The position numbers and the translations under genes are program-made. A DNA stretch of 64,000 nt from Neobacillus massiliamazoniensis (GTDB lineage Bacteria; Bacillota; Bacilli; Bacillales; Cytobacillaceae): positions 186,001 through 250,000 of the forward strand of contig NZ_CVRB01000004.1 in assembly GCF_001048695.1 (NCBI RefSeq), in the 5' to 3' direction. The stretch's first letter is position 1. Each line of letters starts with the position of its first letter. Under the pieces are notes generated by a model that was not told the DNA's origin, searched no databases, and worked only from the letters and a program-made list of their open reading frames with translations. Shown piece after piece: positions 5,651-62,505 of this stretch.

Positions 5651-5894
5651 GGCTGTGTTAAACTTGCCTGTTGATTTGTGCTCAAGAAGCGAGCATCCGC
5701 GGGCGTTCCGGGGAGCCTCCTCGGCGCTTAAGCGCCTGTGGGGTCTCCCCTGCCCCGTACTCCCGCAGGACATTGAATTACATCCTTGAATCCGCCCACG
5801 CACGAAGGAAATGCGATAGCATTTTCGAGGAGTCTCGCGCCTTCCGCTCCAATCAACATAGTTTCAAAAATCAACTATGACCTTTAACACAGCC
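5651..5894 (+). mobile_element. MITE-like repeat element, 8-bp-TSD family, copy 3
   Basis: 244 bp with ends GGCTGTGTTAAAC and TTTAACACAGCC, flanked by an exact 8-bp direct repeat TATAAAAA (5643-5650 and 5895-5902). The interior has the GC-rich palindrome followed by the AT-richer insert and CGCCTTCCGCTCCAATCAACA. It lies upstream of the ypgQ/ABC-F operon. Confidence 0.88.
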
Positions 5895-8480: not shown

Positions 8481-9389
8481 TTGCCTATTAACATTCCAAA
8501 GCTCTTACCCGCACGAGAAATTTTAGAGCAGGAAAATATTTTTATAATGGATGATGAACGTGCAACTGGTCAGGATATCAGGCCGTTAAATATCTTAATC
8601 TTGAATTTAATGCCTGAAAAAGAGAAAGCAGAAACACAACTGTTAAGATTATTGGGAAATACCCCATTACAAGTAAATGTTACTTTTCTTAAAACCCATA
8701 CCTATGAATCCACTCATACAAGCAAGCAGCATCTAGAGCAATTTTACAAAACCTTTTCCGAAATGAAACATCAGCGATTTGACGGAATGATAATAACAGG
8801 GGCACCTGTTGAGCTGTTAGATTTTGAACAAGTGAAATATTGGCAGGAATTAACCAATATTATGGAATGGACAAAAACAAATGTTACCTCAACATTGCAT
8901 ATATGCTGGGGAGCTCAGGCAGCACTCTACTATCATTATGAGATTGGAAAGTTTGAATTGGATCGAAAATGCTCTGGAATTTATCCACATCGAATTTTCG
9001 AACAAAATGATATTCTATTACGAGGATTCGATGATCATTTTTATGCTCCCCATTCTCGCTATACTGATGTATCTATTGAAGCAATAAAGGGGCATCCGGA
9101 ATTAAAATTGCTTGCAGCTTCAATGGAGGCAGGTGCATTATTAATTGCTTCTCGTGACCGAAAGCATGTTATGATCACGGGTCATTTAGAGTATGAATCT
9201 GATACTCTCGCACAGGAATATGCCAGAGACATTAATAAAGGGTTAGAAATTCATATTCCAGAAAACTATTTTCCAAATAATGATCCCAGTCTTCCACCCA
9301 TAAACAGTTGGAGAGCCCATGGCCATTTATTCTTCTCTAATTGGCTTAATTATTATGTCTATCAAGAAACACCCTTTATATGGGAATAA
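8481..9389 (+). CDS. metA: Homoserine O-acetyltransferase MetA
   Basis: 302 residues, starting at a TTG (8481) with AAAGGGGAT upstream. It acylates homoserine for methionine synthesis. The catalytic Cys142 lies in [14 protein letters not shown], and the HLEYES motif carries the conserved His and Glu. Residue 111 is Glu ([12 protein letters not shown]); in this family Glu111 goes with acetyl-CoA use and Gly111 with succinyl-CoA, so acetyltransferase activity is inferred. It has its own promoter. Its terminator was split by the IS1182-type element that follows. Confidence 0.95.
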
Positions 9390-9415
9390 CAAGAAAGCAT
9401 CGGCAACCAGCCGAT

Positions 9416-9453
9416 CAGGCTGTCGAAAAACCCTCGGCAGCCTCTTATTTTAT
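9416..9453 (+). terminator. Inward-facing terminator hairpin at left end of the IS element
   Basis: AGGCTGTCGAAAAACCCTCG followed by GCAGCCTC then TTATTTTATT. The hairpin plus T-rich run reads into the element from the metA side. The equivalent end in the 42880 and 59837 copies is AGGCTGTCGAAAAACTTTCG then ATAGCCTTTTATTT. Confidence 0.55.
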
Positions 9454-9703
9454 TCAATCACTTTAACAAATCACCGCGTTATTTCGTTGTAATATTATTA
9501 GTATATATCGGCTTTCAACATGTCTGTTGATAGGCGCTCCAGGCACTTCGCTTTCCGCGGGCGTGCCGGGGAGCCTCCTCGTCGCTTCGCTCCTGCGTGG
9601 TCTCCCCTGCCCCGTATTCCCGCAGGAGTCTTCGTGCCTTCCGCGCCAATCAACAGAGTGTTTCAATAAGACCTTCAACTCAACTAATAAATATTAAAAA
9701 GAC

Positions 9704-10218
9704 GTGGTGAAATCAACGTTTAATCCAAAAGAGTCTAGCCAAAGTGAATATGAATTTGTGTCTATTGATGAATTAGTTCCTAACGAACATCTCTTCCGTT
9801 TGATCGATAAATATATTGATTTTTCTTTCCTTCTTGAAAAAGTTCGCCCTTTTTTTTGCGATGACAACAGTCGCCCTACTAATCCCCTTATTCTTTTTAA
9901 AATGATGTTTATTGGTTATCTTTACGGCATACGTTCTGAGATTTCAACTAGAAAGGGAAATAAAAATGAACAATACCTACCGCTAGTTCTTAGGTTTGAA
10001 ATTCCATGATCCGGTTCCCCATCACTCTACAATTAATCGTCAACATCGTTTTAAGACACTGATATCTTTCAGGAAATTTTTGATGAAATATTTCTTCAGG
10101 CAATCAATCACATTATGGTCGGTGGTCGTGATTTATTTACGGATTCAACTAATTTAAAAGCAATTGCAAATAAACACAAGTTTACAAAACAAGAAGTGGA
10201 AGTGGTTGCAATACTTTA
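9704..10218 (+). pseudogene. IS1182-family transposase remnant
   Basis: The first 78 codons read as an IS1182-family N-terminus (SIDELVPNEHLFRLIDKYID, then LILFKMMFIGYLYGIRSE). Homology continues in other frames. After a frameshift near 9945 it reads QLEREIKMNNTYR, then an in-frame TAG where Trp is expected, then FLGLKFHDPVPHHSTINRQ. After another frameshift near 10065 it reads DIFQEIFDEIFLQ, DLFTDSTNLKAIANK and a stop. The C-terminal catalytic part is missing. It is non-functional and cannot mobilise the element by itself. Confidence 0.85.
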
Positions 10219-10544
10219 GGTTGATTTACCTCCCTGTTGATTGGAGCGGAGGGCACTCGACTCCTGCGGGATAGAGAGGTCACTGGAGACCCCACAGGCG
10301 CCAAAGCGCCGAGGAGGCTCCAGGACCTCCCCGCGGAAAGCGAGTGTCCCGGAGCGGAAATCAACAGGCCCATTTGCATGAACAATCAATAAATTTAGTA
10401 TATAGATTCTGACAAAATAAAAAATTGCCGAGAAAAATACCCTTTCTCGACAATCTGATCTGCAACCAGTCCGATGCTTTTTTATTCCCGATTTGGTTAT
10501 TTTTCTAAAATAAAGAAAGAATAAAGATTAAAAGGAGGTTTTAT

Positions 10545-10757
10545 ATGGAAAAAATAGTGGCTGTTCACCGTAATTATTTTGGAGATATTATTAGCTTTGT
10601 TACATCCAATGGAAGAGTTATTTCCTATCAAAAGGCATTGCTTGAAGCAGAAAATGGTTTGCTTCAAGGTGTTCAGACAAAGGCGGGAGACGTTGGTAAT
10701 CTAGTCTTATATCCTGAGCTGGAGCAATCTTTTGACCATTATCCAGAGTTATTTTAA
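10545..10757 (+). CDS. DUF3892 family small protein
   Basis: 70 residues (MEKIVAVHRNYFGDIISFVT...). The pattern of an initial beta-strand with GDIISF and GRVISYQKALLEAENG matches DUF3892, small cytosolic Bacillus proteins of unknown function. AAAAGGAGG lies 7 nt before the ATG. A strong hairpin terminator follows at 10760-10790. It is a single-gene unit between the IS remnant and mntR. Confidence 0.75.
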   Translation: MEKIVAVHRNYFGDIISFVTSNGRVISYQKALLEAENGLLQGVQTKAGDVGNLVLYPELEQSFDHYPELF

Positions 10758-13748: not shown

Positions 13749-13992
13749 GGCTGTGTTAAAGGTTATTGTTGATTTTGTAACTATGTTGATTGGAGCGGAA
13801 GGTGCGAGATCCTCGAAAATGCTATCGCATTTCCTTCGTGCGGTGTAGATTCGAAGAAGCTGATTCAATGTCCTGCGGGAGTACGGAGCAGGGGAGACCC
13901 TTCAGGCGCTTAAGCGCCGAGGAGGCTCCCCGGACCGCCCGCGGAAAGCGAAGCGCCTGGAGCGGAAATCAACAGGCAAATTTATCACAGCC
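13749..13992 (-). mobile_element. MITE-like repeat element, 8-bp-TSD family, copy 6 (inverted)
   Basis: 244 bp, opposite in orientation to most copies, with ends GGCTGTGTTAAAGG and TTATCACAGCC. It is flanked by an exact 8-bp direct repeat TATTCTAA (13741-13748 and 13993-14000), the cleanest duplication in the window. It sits about 75 bp upstream of the cspD promoter. Confidence 0.9.
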
Positions 13993-19054: not shown

Positions 19055-19361
19055 GGCTGTGTTAAATCTTATCGTTGATTTTGCCACAGTTGATTGGCGT
19101 GGAAGGTGCTTCGCTTTCCGCGGGCGTGCCGGGGAGCCTCCTCAGCGCTTTAGCGCCTGCGGGGTCTCCCGCAGGACATTGAATTACATCCTTGAATCCG
19201 CCCACGCACGAAGGAAATGCGATAGCATTTTCGAGGAGTCGAGCACCTTCCGCTCCAATCAACAGGCCAACTAGCATTGACAATGAGTTAATAAAAATCG
19301 GTATTTTAGTTCGCGACAAAATAAAAAATTGCCGAGAAAAATACCATTTCTCGACAATCTG
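19055..19361 (+). mobile_element. Hybrid repeat element (left end of one family, right end of the other), copy 7
   Basis: Left end GGCTGTGTTAAATC as in the 8-bp-TSD family. The right end is the AAAAAATTGCCGAGAAAA...TCTCGACAATCTG arm of the terminator-inserting family. A hairpin (GGTATTTGCA...TGTAAATACC, then TTTATTTTTTT) follows the right end at 19361-19398, as expected for a terminator target, but no matching copy is seen at the left. It looks like a recombinant or left-truncated copy. Confidence 0.6.
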
Positions 19362-19457
19362 GGTATTTGCATATCTCTAATTTGTAAATACCTTTATTTT
19401 TTTAGTGTTTTTAAAAATTAGGTCTTGATAAGCGTAGACCAGGGCGTTTTCTTTTAT

Positions 19458-27634: not shown

Positions 27635-27865
27635 AAGGCACTGTTAAACTTGTCTGTTGATTTCCGCTCTAGTGGCGGTTCGGGGAGCCTCCTCGGCGCT
27701 ATTGCGCCTGCGGGGTCTCCCCTGCCCCGTACTCCCGCAGGACATTGAATTACATCCTTGAATCCGCCCACGCACGAAGGAAATGCGATAGCATTTTCGA
27801 GGAGTCGAGCGCCTTCCGCTCCAATCAACATAGTGGAAAAATCAACAATGAGCTTTAACATAGCC
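27635..27865 (+). mobile_element. MITE-like repeat element, 8-bp-TSD family, copy 8
   Basis: 231 bp with ends GGCACTGTTAAAC and TTTAACATAGCC, flanked by an exact 8-bp direct repeat AATAAAAA (27627-27634 and 27866-27873). The first part of the GC palindrome is shortened. It lies upstream of bcsA. Confidence 0.85.
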
Positions 27866-35888: not shown

Positions 35889-36307
35889 CATTAAAAACGT
35901 TCTATAAGCCATGTTCTGTACCAAAGTACTTCAAACGACCATTCATGTCTCGTACTAAGGCGGCAATCATCTATCTACAGATTCAATTTGGAATCTGTCC
36001 TTCTCCTTGTTGATTTCCTCAGAGAAAGTGCCCCTACCATAATTTGGGTTTCTCGCTCGTGGGGTTTACCCGTTCCACCCTTTCCATTTCTAGAAAGGCA
36101 TCGTCACTGTGGCACTTTTAAAGGTACTCATACCATATCCCAATAGAGACTTAGGTATTTTCCCAGCCGTCAGTTGAGATTCTCCCCAACTGCCCTAGCT
36201 TATGAATTCACTAGGCACGAACACTACGGACATCTCAGACCGTGCGAGCATGGACTTTCCTCTACAATTCGCTAATAGCTCTTGCAGCGATTACCCGAAC
36301 GTAATTA
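35889..36307 (-). ncRNA. rnpB: RNase P RNA, Bacillus (B) type
   Basis: On the minus strand it begins ACGTTCGGGTAATCGCTGC and carries the universal pieces GAGGAAAGTCCATGCTCGCA, AGTGCCACAGTGACGA, GGTAAACCCC-ACGAGCGAGAAA and AGATAGATGATTGCCGCC. It ends ACAGAACATGGCTTATAGAA. About 415 nt, as in B. subtilis. It is the catalytic RNA that removes 5' leaders from tRNA precursors. Its place between gpsB and ypsC is conserved. An open frame at 36202-36387 on the other strand is spurious. Ends are approximate to a few bases. Confidence 0.96.
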
Positions 36308-42844: not shown

Positions 42845-42850
42845 ATAAAA

Positions 42851-42879
42851 ACCCGCAGAATAATTAAATCCTGCGGGTT
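42851..42879. terminator. Terminator of the Crp/Fnr gene, left half of a duplicated hairpin
   Basis: ACCCGCAG...CCTGCGGGTT, 7 nt after the stop codon. A related hairpin (ACCCGCAAATCATCC then TGCGGGTTTT) stands on the other side of the element at 43266-43290 and serves hcp. Confidence 0.75.
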
Positions 42880-43265
42880 CAGGCTGTCGAAAAACTTTCG
42901 ATAGCCTTTTATTTCATTCACTTTATTTAACAATTCACCGCGTTAATTTATTATAATTTTATATAGGCTGTACGATAGGTCTGTTGATTTGCGCTCAAGA
43001 AGCTCGCTTACCGTGGGCGTGCCGGGGAGCCTCCTCGGCGCTTTGGCGCCTGCGGGGTCTCCCCCTGCCCCGTACTTCCGCAGGACATTGAATCATCATC
43101 TTTGAATCAACTCCGCACGAAGGAAACGCGATAGCATTTTCGAGGATCGAGCGCCTTCCGCTCCAATCAACAGGCTAGCATTGACAATTAGTTAATAAAA
43201 ATCGGGATTTTAGTTCACGACAGAATAAAAAATTGCCGAGAAAAATATCTTTTCTCGACAATCTG
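42880..43265 (+). mobile_element. Terminator-inserted MITE, copy 9
   Basis: 386 bp with the same ends as the IS1182-type remnant: CAGGCTGTCGAAAAACTTTC and TTTTCTCGACAATCTG. It includes the subterminal TTTAACAATTCACCGCGTTAA and GTTAATAAAAATCGGGATTTT segments and one GC-rich module. No transposase. It sits between two versions of the crp/hcp terminator hairpin. Confidence 0.8.
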
Positions 43266-43290
43266 ACCCGCAAATCATCCTGCGGGTTTT
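43266..43290 (-). terminator. hcp terminator, right half of the duplicated hairpin
   Basis: ACCCGCA-aatcatcc-TGCGGGTTTT with AT-rich sequence; it lies 5 nt after the hcp stop. Stem sequence is that of 42851-42879 but the loop is 6 nt shorter. Confidence 0.65.
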
Positions 43291-52799: not shown

Positions 52800-53039
52800 G
52801 ACTGTGTTAAACTTGCCTGTTGATTTGCGCTCCAGGCTTCGCTTTCCGCGGGCGTTCCGGGGAGCCTCCTCGGCGCTTAAGCGCCTGTGGGGTCTCCCGC
52901 CCCGTACTCCCGCAGGACGTTGAATCAGCATCCTTGAATCAACACCGCACGAAGGAAATGCGATAGCATTTTCGAGGATCTCGCGCCTTCCGCTCCAATC
53001 AACATAGTTTCAAAAATCAACAATGACTTTAACACAGCC
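52800..53039 (+). mobile_element. MITE-like repeat element, 8-bp-TSD family, copy 10
   Basis: 240 bp with ends GACTGTGTTAAAC and TTTAACACAGCC, flanked by ATCAATTC (52792-52799) and ATCAATTA (53040-53047), 7 of 8 identical. It lies between dnaD and nth, so it splits what is a tight dnaD-nth-ypoC cluster in B. subtilis. Confidence 0.85.
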
Positions 53040-59836: not shown

Positions 59837-60199
59837 CAGGCTGTCGAAAAACTTTCGATAGTCTTTTATTTCATTCACTTTCTTTAACAATTCACCGCAT
59901 TAATTTATTTTAATATCATTAATTTATAGGCTGTTCAATAGGTCTTTTGATTTGCGCTCAAGAAGCGAGCATCCGCGGGCGTGCCGGGGAGCCTCCTCGG
60001 CCCCGTACTCCCGCAGGACATTGAATTACATCCTTGAATCCGCGCACGAAGGATATGCGATAGCATTTTCGAGGAGTCGAGCGCCTTCCGCTCCAATCAA
60101 CAGGCTAGCTAGCATGGACAATTAGTTAATAAAAATCGGGATTTTAGTTCACGACAAAATAAAAAATTGCCGAGAAAAATACCCTTTCTCGACAATCTG
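59837..60199 (+). mobile_element. Terminator-inserted MITE, copy 11
   Basis: 363 bp with ends CAGGCTGTCGAAAAACTTTC and TTTCTCGACAATCTG and one GC module that lacks part of its centre. It stands between the two copies of the panD terminator hairpin, giving a 19-bp direct repeat. No transposase. Confidence 0.85.
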
Positions 60200-62404: not shown

Positions 62405-62505
62405 CCCTCTGTCCCGGTCCGTTACACGGATCTAGGCAGAAACCATTTAGTTTTCACGTTTTAAAACCAGGTGCAGTTCCAAATGGATACTGCCCATTGC
62501 CATGA
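62405..62505 (-). ncRNA. pan-motif RNA, candidate riboswitch of panBCD
   Basis: The leader on the minus strand holds two tandem stem-loops. The first is GGGCAGTATCCATTTGGAAC then TGCACC. The second is CTGCCTAGATCCGTGTAACG then GACCGGGACAG, both with unpaired adenosines in the stem. This is the layout of the published pan motif, found before panB in Firmicutes. The ligand is unknown. The attenuator that follows makes transcriptional control likely. Confidence 0.75.

Follow-up and report, generated by a model that had tools for sequence, protein, structure and literature searches.

An internally deleted IS1182-family element behind metA and the probable duplication of target stem-loops by its clade

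The target duplications produced by DDE transposases normally have a characteristic length, which is determined by the distance between two active sites. In a 64,000-nt stretch of Neobacillus massiliamazoniensis DNA (the window), an insertion element splits the terminator of metA and has a copy of the terminator's hairpin core at each border, which raises the question of what determined the length of the duplicated unit and why the insertion occurred at a terminator. Most probably, the element is a deletion derivative of the IS1182 family whose clade uses DNA hairpins as insertion sites and leaves one copy of the stem-loop on each side. Comparison among relatives supports this: hairpins are duplicated in many clade members, the repeats are symmetric about the dyad and vary in length, and orthologous metA loci have a single hairpin.

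The element behind metA

The gene metA (homoserine O-succinyltransferase, ORF at 8481-9389 on the plus strand, Pfam HTS, E 1.1e-139) supplied the terminator that served as insertion target; the other neighbor of the element is a DUF3892 gene (10545-10757, Pfam). The element itself (9416-10457, plus strand, 1042 bp) is recognized from its ends, flanks and relatives as internally deleted and non-autonomous. It starts with CAGGCTGTCGAAAAAC at 9416 and finishes with TTTCTCGACAATCTG at 10457, which confirms the extent given by the sequence-only reading that first drew attention to it, and it is bounded at these positions by terminal inverted repeats (CAGGCTGTCGA / TCGACAATCTG) common to its relatives. 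Each end also forms a terminator-like hairpin that reads inward (left, 9417-9443, plus strand, fold z -5.9; right, 10422-10456, minus strand, z -5.8).

The duplicated hairpin core reads ATCGGCAACCAGCCGAT in its left copy (9399-9415), which has a folding energy of -8.2 kcal/mol (z -4.1). The right copy, ATCTGCAACCAGTCCGAT (10458-10475), differs from the left one by one substitution and one insertion, folds at -1.2 kcal/mol (z -0.2) and is absent from a terminator scan of the window; because it no longer folds, it is regarded as decayed. It is followed by GCTTTTTTATT, and at 10476-10486 (plus strand) lie the T-tract of the original metA terminator and the base of its outer stem. Outside the left copy stands AAAGC and outside the right copy GCTTT, both unduplicated, and the ancestral stem was probably longer than the duplicated unit, continuing outward through these two motifs. 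The proposal of a hairpin at both borders is thus borne out on the left, and on the right only as a recognizable copy, whereas the proposal that the whole hairpin was duplicated appears to fail at metA, where the outer AAAGC/GCTTT pairs stay single on either side. Since both border copies are present, the locus does not show the IS1272-type replacement, in which the hairpin is deleted without duplication.

An N-terminal transposase remnant (9704-10009, plus strand) matches the IS1182 profile NF033551 with 56 bits (E 2.7e-15) over positions 3-73 of 488, a fragment when compared with the family cut-off of 270 bits and with the relatives L261 (474 bits) and L101 (480 bits); the transposase had been called broken from the sequence, correctly. 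When stops are read through, transposase pieces extend to profile position 159, to about 10195. The closest open relative, L058, encodes a 463-aa transposase that shares 61 of 72 residues with the remnant. The window element aligns at 80% with both parts of L058, which is about 855 bp longer in the middle, and this alignment on both sides of a missing middle identifies the window element as a deletion derivative. Its ends are kept, its transposase is incomplete and an open transposase exists in L058, as in a non-autonomous derivative. A second copy (95%) lies at G000:C1:382136, and the element's own genome contains no IS1182 transposase match above the cut-off that is free of stops. Presumably, an intact relative mobilized the deletion derivative into the metA terminator. 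L058 has the borders GCACCGCTTTTGCGGTGC / GCACCGCTTTGCGGTGC, with the left hairpin GCACCGC-TTTT-GCGGTGC and an identical right one with one loop base fewer; there are two copies of its right end, separated by an assembly gap, and it is the outer copy that the hairpin adjoins.

The domains DUF772 and DDE_Tnp_1_6 were found in all four relatives tested, and the short window remnant alone has no Pfam match at E 0.001. The best structural matches of an AlphaFold transposase model (pLDDT 82) are Tn5 and piggyBac (best E 2.4e-3, none at or below 0.001), weakly suggesting a DDE-type fold nearest to these two; a sequence search of solved structures gave nothing significant (best E 0.17). On the manner in which the target is recognized, the model is not decisive.

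The element also contains a GC-rich repeat of about 140 nt in two inverted copies (9514-9669 and 10234-10367). The repeat occurs in at least 33 other places of the genome (40 of 305 candidates scored), with related stretches of the window near 842-916, 5696-5870, 13871-13978, 27681-27846 and 52807-52917. L101, L058, L064 and L071 contain matches as well, and further ones lie within or next to the elements of L081 and L121; there was no Rfam match at the gathering threshold.

The empty site was sought in 23 congeneric relatives in which metA was located; the stop search resolved 22, and the 75 nt after the gene were inspected. Thirteen of the 22 have one terminator, with the 5′ arm GCATCGG as in the duplicated core (two of the 13, L237 and L239, are identical over the 75 nt), in agreement with the expectation that empty sites carry a single hairpin. 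The remaining resolved relatives show other hairpins or none that is clear. In L244 (G006), the same type of IS has inserted independently at that genome's own, different metA terminator, where the sequence stops inside the element; the hairpin resembles the one at the empty site of L250 (G014). The comparisons yielded no before/after pair in which the flanks are nearly identical. ISCfr1 in E. coli, considered as a source of such pairs, matches 334 records, and the six examined share the left neighbor gene and are uninformative. All seven ISCfr1 copies seen (E. coli L348-L353, Leclercia L343) have this same left neighbor, with a DUF3883 / NO VEIN domain, which gives the impression that gene and element move together.

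Stem-loop repeats among relatives

Two further complete copies in the window, both on the plus strand, have a hairpin at both borders: a 386-bp miniature relative (42880-43265; hairpins 42850-42879, z -5.4, and 43266-43287, z -4.1) and a 363-bp one (59837-60199) with the flanks AATCCCTGATTTGGGGATT / AATCCCCGATTTGGGGATT, which are 18/19 identical and fold more weakly (z -1.6 and -2.0). A right-end remnant of a related copy (19257-19361, plus strand) is followed by a hairpin and T-tract at 19362-19400. A search of the genome with the end pattern (up to two mismatches) gave 13 places, and the nine with both ends were examined (L046, L047, L048 and L050 were left out). Five of the nine have an ungapped repeat of 15-21 bp (13/15, 16/17, 18/18, 18/19 and 19/21 identical), and three have a similar hairpin bearing substitutions and indels (L042, which is the metA element, L043 and L045). 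One of the five, L041, duplicates only half a hairpin, and L039, the last of the nine, has no repeat at its borders.

A larger set came from a scan of 60 congeneric genomes, several of them copy-rich: 60 of the listed copies were taken from five genomes, one of which gives two element types. These relatives have the same kind of ends (CAGRCTGTCGA or CAGACTGTAGA), and the ends were fixed by the shared motifs, not by the hairpins. Direct repeats of 16-55 bp, in 20 distinct lengths, flank 58 of the 60 copies. The pairing test (p<0.01) was passed by 57 of the 58 repeats; six edge pairs were attained by 1.8% (k=22) and 1.4% (k=28) of random flank windows. In 54 of 58 cases, the center of the repeat falls exactly on the dyad of the hairpin, and in 56 it lies within half a base of it; the other two are 5.5 and 11 bases off. 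The hairpin sequence is specific to each site and, in most copies, identical on both sides. Of the two exceptions, L095 has different hairpins at its two borders, as after recombination between copies, and L098 has a hairpin on one side only. The repeat in this clade is the stem-loop itself, centered on the dyad, as the window copies at 42880 and 59837 also show and as the metA copy shows with a decayed right side. Because intact relatives duplicate hairpins in the same way, repeat length appears to follow the shape of the folded DNA, not a fixed distance.

Under an eight-base rule for tracts outside the repeat (n=58), 12 sites have a T-tract on the right only, 12 an A-tract on the left only, 30 both and four neither; under a looser rule, in which the tract may overlap the stem end, all 58 have one or the other. 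None of the 58 lies within an open 300-nt frame, compared with 62% of random window positions. Among 31 perfect hairpins of the window, 17 have a tract and ten lie in an open frame; relative to the 21 outside open frames, tracts are enriched at the 58 sites (Fisher p 1.4e-6, with hairpin definitions that differ between the two sets). The preference for terminator hairpins with duplication, which had been proposed from the metA locus alone, thus holds for 58 of 60 copies, and the suggested inspection of flanks bears it out for elements with either type of end.

Across the phylum, 71 of 398 genomes have a match above the family cut-off. A strict stem-loop test was passed by 62 of 120 loci, in which all IS1182 clades are mixed and which were pooled from four sets of 30, 40, two and 48; outside the 60-copy set the end-finder scores repeats, and copies without a repeat are harder to place. 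Among the 62, five have neither a T- nor an A-tract and six have an open frame across the site. Of 80 loci in named species, 48 were tested, eight are in genomes matched to G010 and G031, and the other 24, most of them cut by contig ends, were left out. In this nearest clade, 37 of the 48 tested loci have a strict stem-loop repeat, five more have an off-centre hairpin by eye (L280, L294, L298, L300 and L302) and six have no hairpin repeat. Strict cases include Cytobacillus, Lysinibacillus, Sporosarcina, Exiguobacterium, Enterococcus, Tetragenococcus, Butyrivibrio, Anaerostipes, Lacrimispora and Romboutsia. One stem-loop insertion (L196, G407) lies in a palindrome that resembles the end sequence of an IS1182 clade without duplication and that has neither tract.

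Folded DNA as a putative target

A fairly likely route to these repeats starts with extrusion of the palindrome into a cruciform. The transposon would use its two 3′ ends to attack both 5′ feet of this structure across the four-way junction, after which repair of the gaps would copy the stem-loop. The feet of a cruciform are always together at the junction, which would explain symmetric cuts at a variable distance, an outcome that is hard to reach on linear duplex. Moreover, the junction can migrate, and in a longer stem the attack may then take place at an internal point; the outer stem pairs left outside the repeat at metA fit such a partly migrated junction. A/T-rich flanks should favor cruciform extrusion. 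Terminators are likely to be the usual targets because, in these genomes, no cruciform-prone sequence is commoner than a perfect GC-rich stem flanked by A/T tracts, and genes would be spared as a consequence, perhaps with some help from the terminator-like ends of the element, which face inward. The requirement itself is probably a DNA palindrome rather than termination, as the five tractless targets among the 62 strict loci suggest.

Alternatively, the target could be the termination complex, with the transposase or a host factor recognizing RNA polymerase paused at an intrinsic terminator. The presence of a tract at every site in the five genomes, above what is seen for window hairpins in general, would fit such recognition, but the tractless sites and the six open frames found elsewhere do not. 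Furthermore, element orientation relative to the tract is even (12 to 12), and the strand cuts are symmetric about the dyad, which is unexpected for a complex that moves in one direction, so that we consider this explanation improbable. Somewhat less improbable, though still unlikely, is recognition in linear duplex, where a dimeric transposase would read the palindrome and cut the A/T-rich edges of a GC-rich block without any cruciform. The outer edge pair of the repeat is A..T in 46 of the 58 cases, as this would predict, and the mostly constant 9-bp repeat of the loop-duplicating clades described below (14 of 17), near the dyad, fits ordinary duplex geometry. The range of 16-55 bp in the stem-loop clade argues against it, since a dimer bound rigidly to B-DNA would have to span varying distances.

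That no duplication took place at all, the two hairpins having stood there beforehand as tandem terminators or having arrived with the element, is hardly credible. The substitution and insertion that separate the metA copies, of which the left alone folds, would be compatible with it. Tandem terminators are, however, opposed by the single terminator with the same stem arm after metA in 13 of 22 resolved relatives and by the site-specific hairpins of the 60-copy set, mostly identical on both sides; carriage by the element is rejected because each site has its own sequence.

A clade with duplications of 16-55 bp that track the hairpin makes structure-directed integration directly testable, and the duplications may record which palindromes fold into hairpins or cruciforms inside living cells. 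A rule for recognizing such elements is also suggested, namely a long repeat of variable length that is itself a stem-loop; their insertions should spare genes and preserve one copy of the hairpin or more.

Insertion modes and known systems

Long variable repeats, given in the sequence-only reading as a trait of IS1182 elements at large, are found in the stem-loop clade, but other clades have mostly 9 bp, 4 bp or no repeat. In 17 insertions from other IS1182 clades, the repeats are 4-9 bp long (9 bp in 14, several of which read 7 in another register). In 16 of the 17, with folds judged by eye, the short repeat sits at the tip of a hairpin whose stem is split to both sides; L190 is weak. These loop-type sites were folded because the strict symmetric score failed for most such targets: fold z ranges from -10 to +1, with z ≤ -2 in five of 17, and the score for stems outside the repeat reached p<0.01 in four of 12 (L147, L150, L151 and L185). 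Three loop-type insertions in G028 (L141-L143) each lie at the tip of a similar long GGGGACAGTCCCCC hairpin, and repeated palindromes of this kind may be used as landing sites. The clade that contains IS1182 itself has no repeat, and many of its 17 loci have A-rich left and T-rich right flanks. Short repeats unrelated to hairpins, which would speak against hairpin duplication, occur in three copies of another group (L154-L156, 4 bp, no hairpin).

These modes cluster on the transposase tree, as far as labels set beforehand from the flanks can tell. A tree of 66 rows, 55 of them labeled, needs five changes of mode, compared with 21.9 after shuffling (none of 200 shuffles as low); near-copies inflate this clustering, the label "no repeat" rests on absence, L302 is labeled stem-loop though off-centre, and L058 is among the 11 unlabeled rows. 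A first tree, which included the long-branch rows L219 and L059 that were left out of the second, needed ten changes for four labels (shuffled mean 28.5). The transposase of ISEfa7 falls within the stem-loop-duplicating clade on the tree. At two E. faecium plasmid sites, ISEfa7 is bordered by a hairpin on its right side and no direct repeat flanks it; in E. mundtii, where the transposase is almost identical, the element is flanked by a stem-loop repeat of 25 bp.

Palindromic or terminator-associated targets are known from other mobile elements. Group IIC introns insert beside intrinsic-terminator hairpins; these are retroelements that act through RNA and, unlike the present elements, are not known to duplicate the hairpin. 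IS231 and REP-targeting IS elements prefer palindromic targets, with duplications that are of fixed length or absent as far as is known, whereas in the present clade the length is set by the stem-loop.

Within the IS1182 family, stem-loop replacing transposition is described for IS1272 and TnSha1 (PMC5678879, PMC4923244), which resemble the present elements in using hairpin targets without shared sequence, several of them confirmed terminators. In these papers, IS1272 removes the stem-loop wholly or partly without target duplication, whereas the present elements keep and duplicate it. The 2017 scheme assigns replacement to attack at the 3′ foot (IS1272), and suggests that attack at the 5′ foot may duplicate the stem-loop and attack at the loop may duplicate the loop, the last two being its possible pathways b and c (PMC5678879). 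Some IS1182 members are said to target palindromic sequences (Siguier et al. 2015, as cited in PMC5678879 and PMC4923244), for which that report gave no detailed data according to PMC5678879. ISPse1 has 4-bp repeats (PMC3281130), a short ordinary duplication that resembles L154-L156 and differs from the stem-loop clade, and the family is described as inserting with or without duplication and recognizing sequence or DNA structure (PMC12056078). No report of natural stem-loop or loop duplication was found in the titles and abstract openings of the open literature (ISfinder and subscription papers lay outside this scope), and no hairpin duplication is reported in passages of PMC3281130, PMC9208149, PMC8868234, PMC10383233, PMC10969869 and PMC3852290. 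Hairpin targeting in the IS1182 family is already known from IS1272, and natural stem-loop duplication is apparently new within the open literature searched.

There are about even chances that the scheme extends to the family as a whole: IS1182-family transposases would integrate into extruded cruciforms rather than into linear duplex, and the site of attack in each clade (5′ foot, apical loop or 3′ foot) would decide between stem-loop duplication, loop duplication and replacement, with repeat length set by folded DNA and not by active-site spacing. The pathways drawn up for IS1272 in 2017 would then exist in nature.

On its minus strand, the window also encodes a bacterial RNase P class B (35900-36302) and a pan motif (62405-62496), both ordinary.
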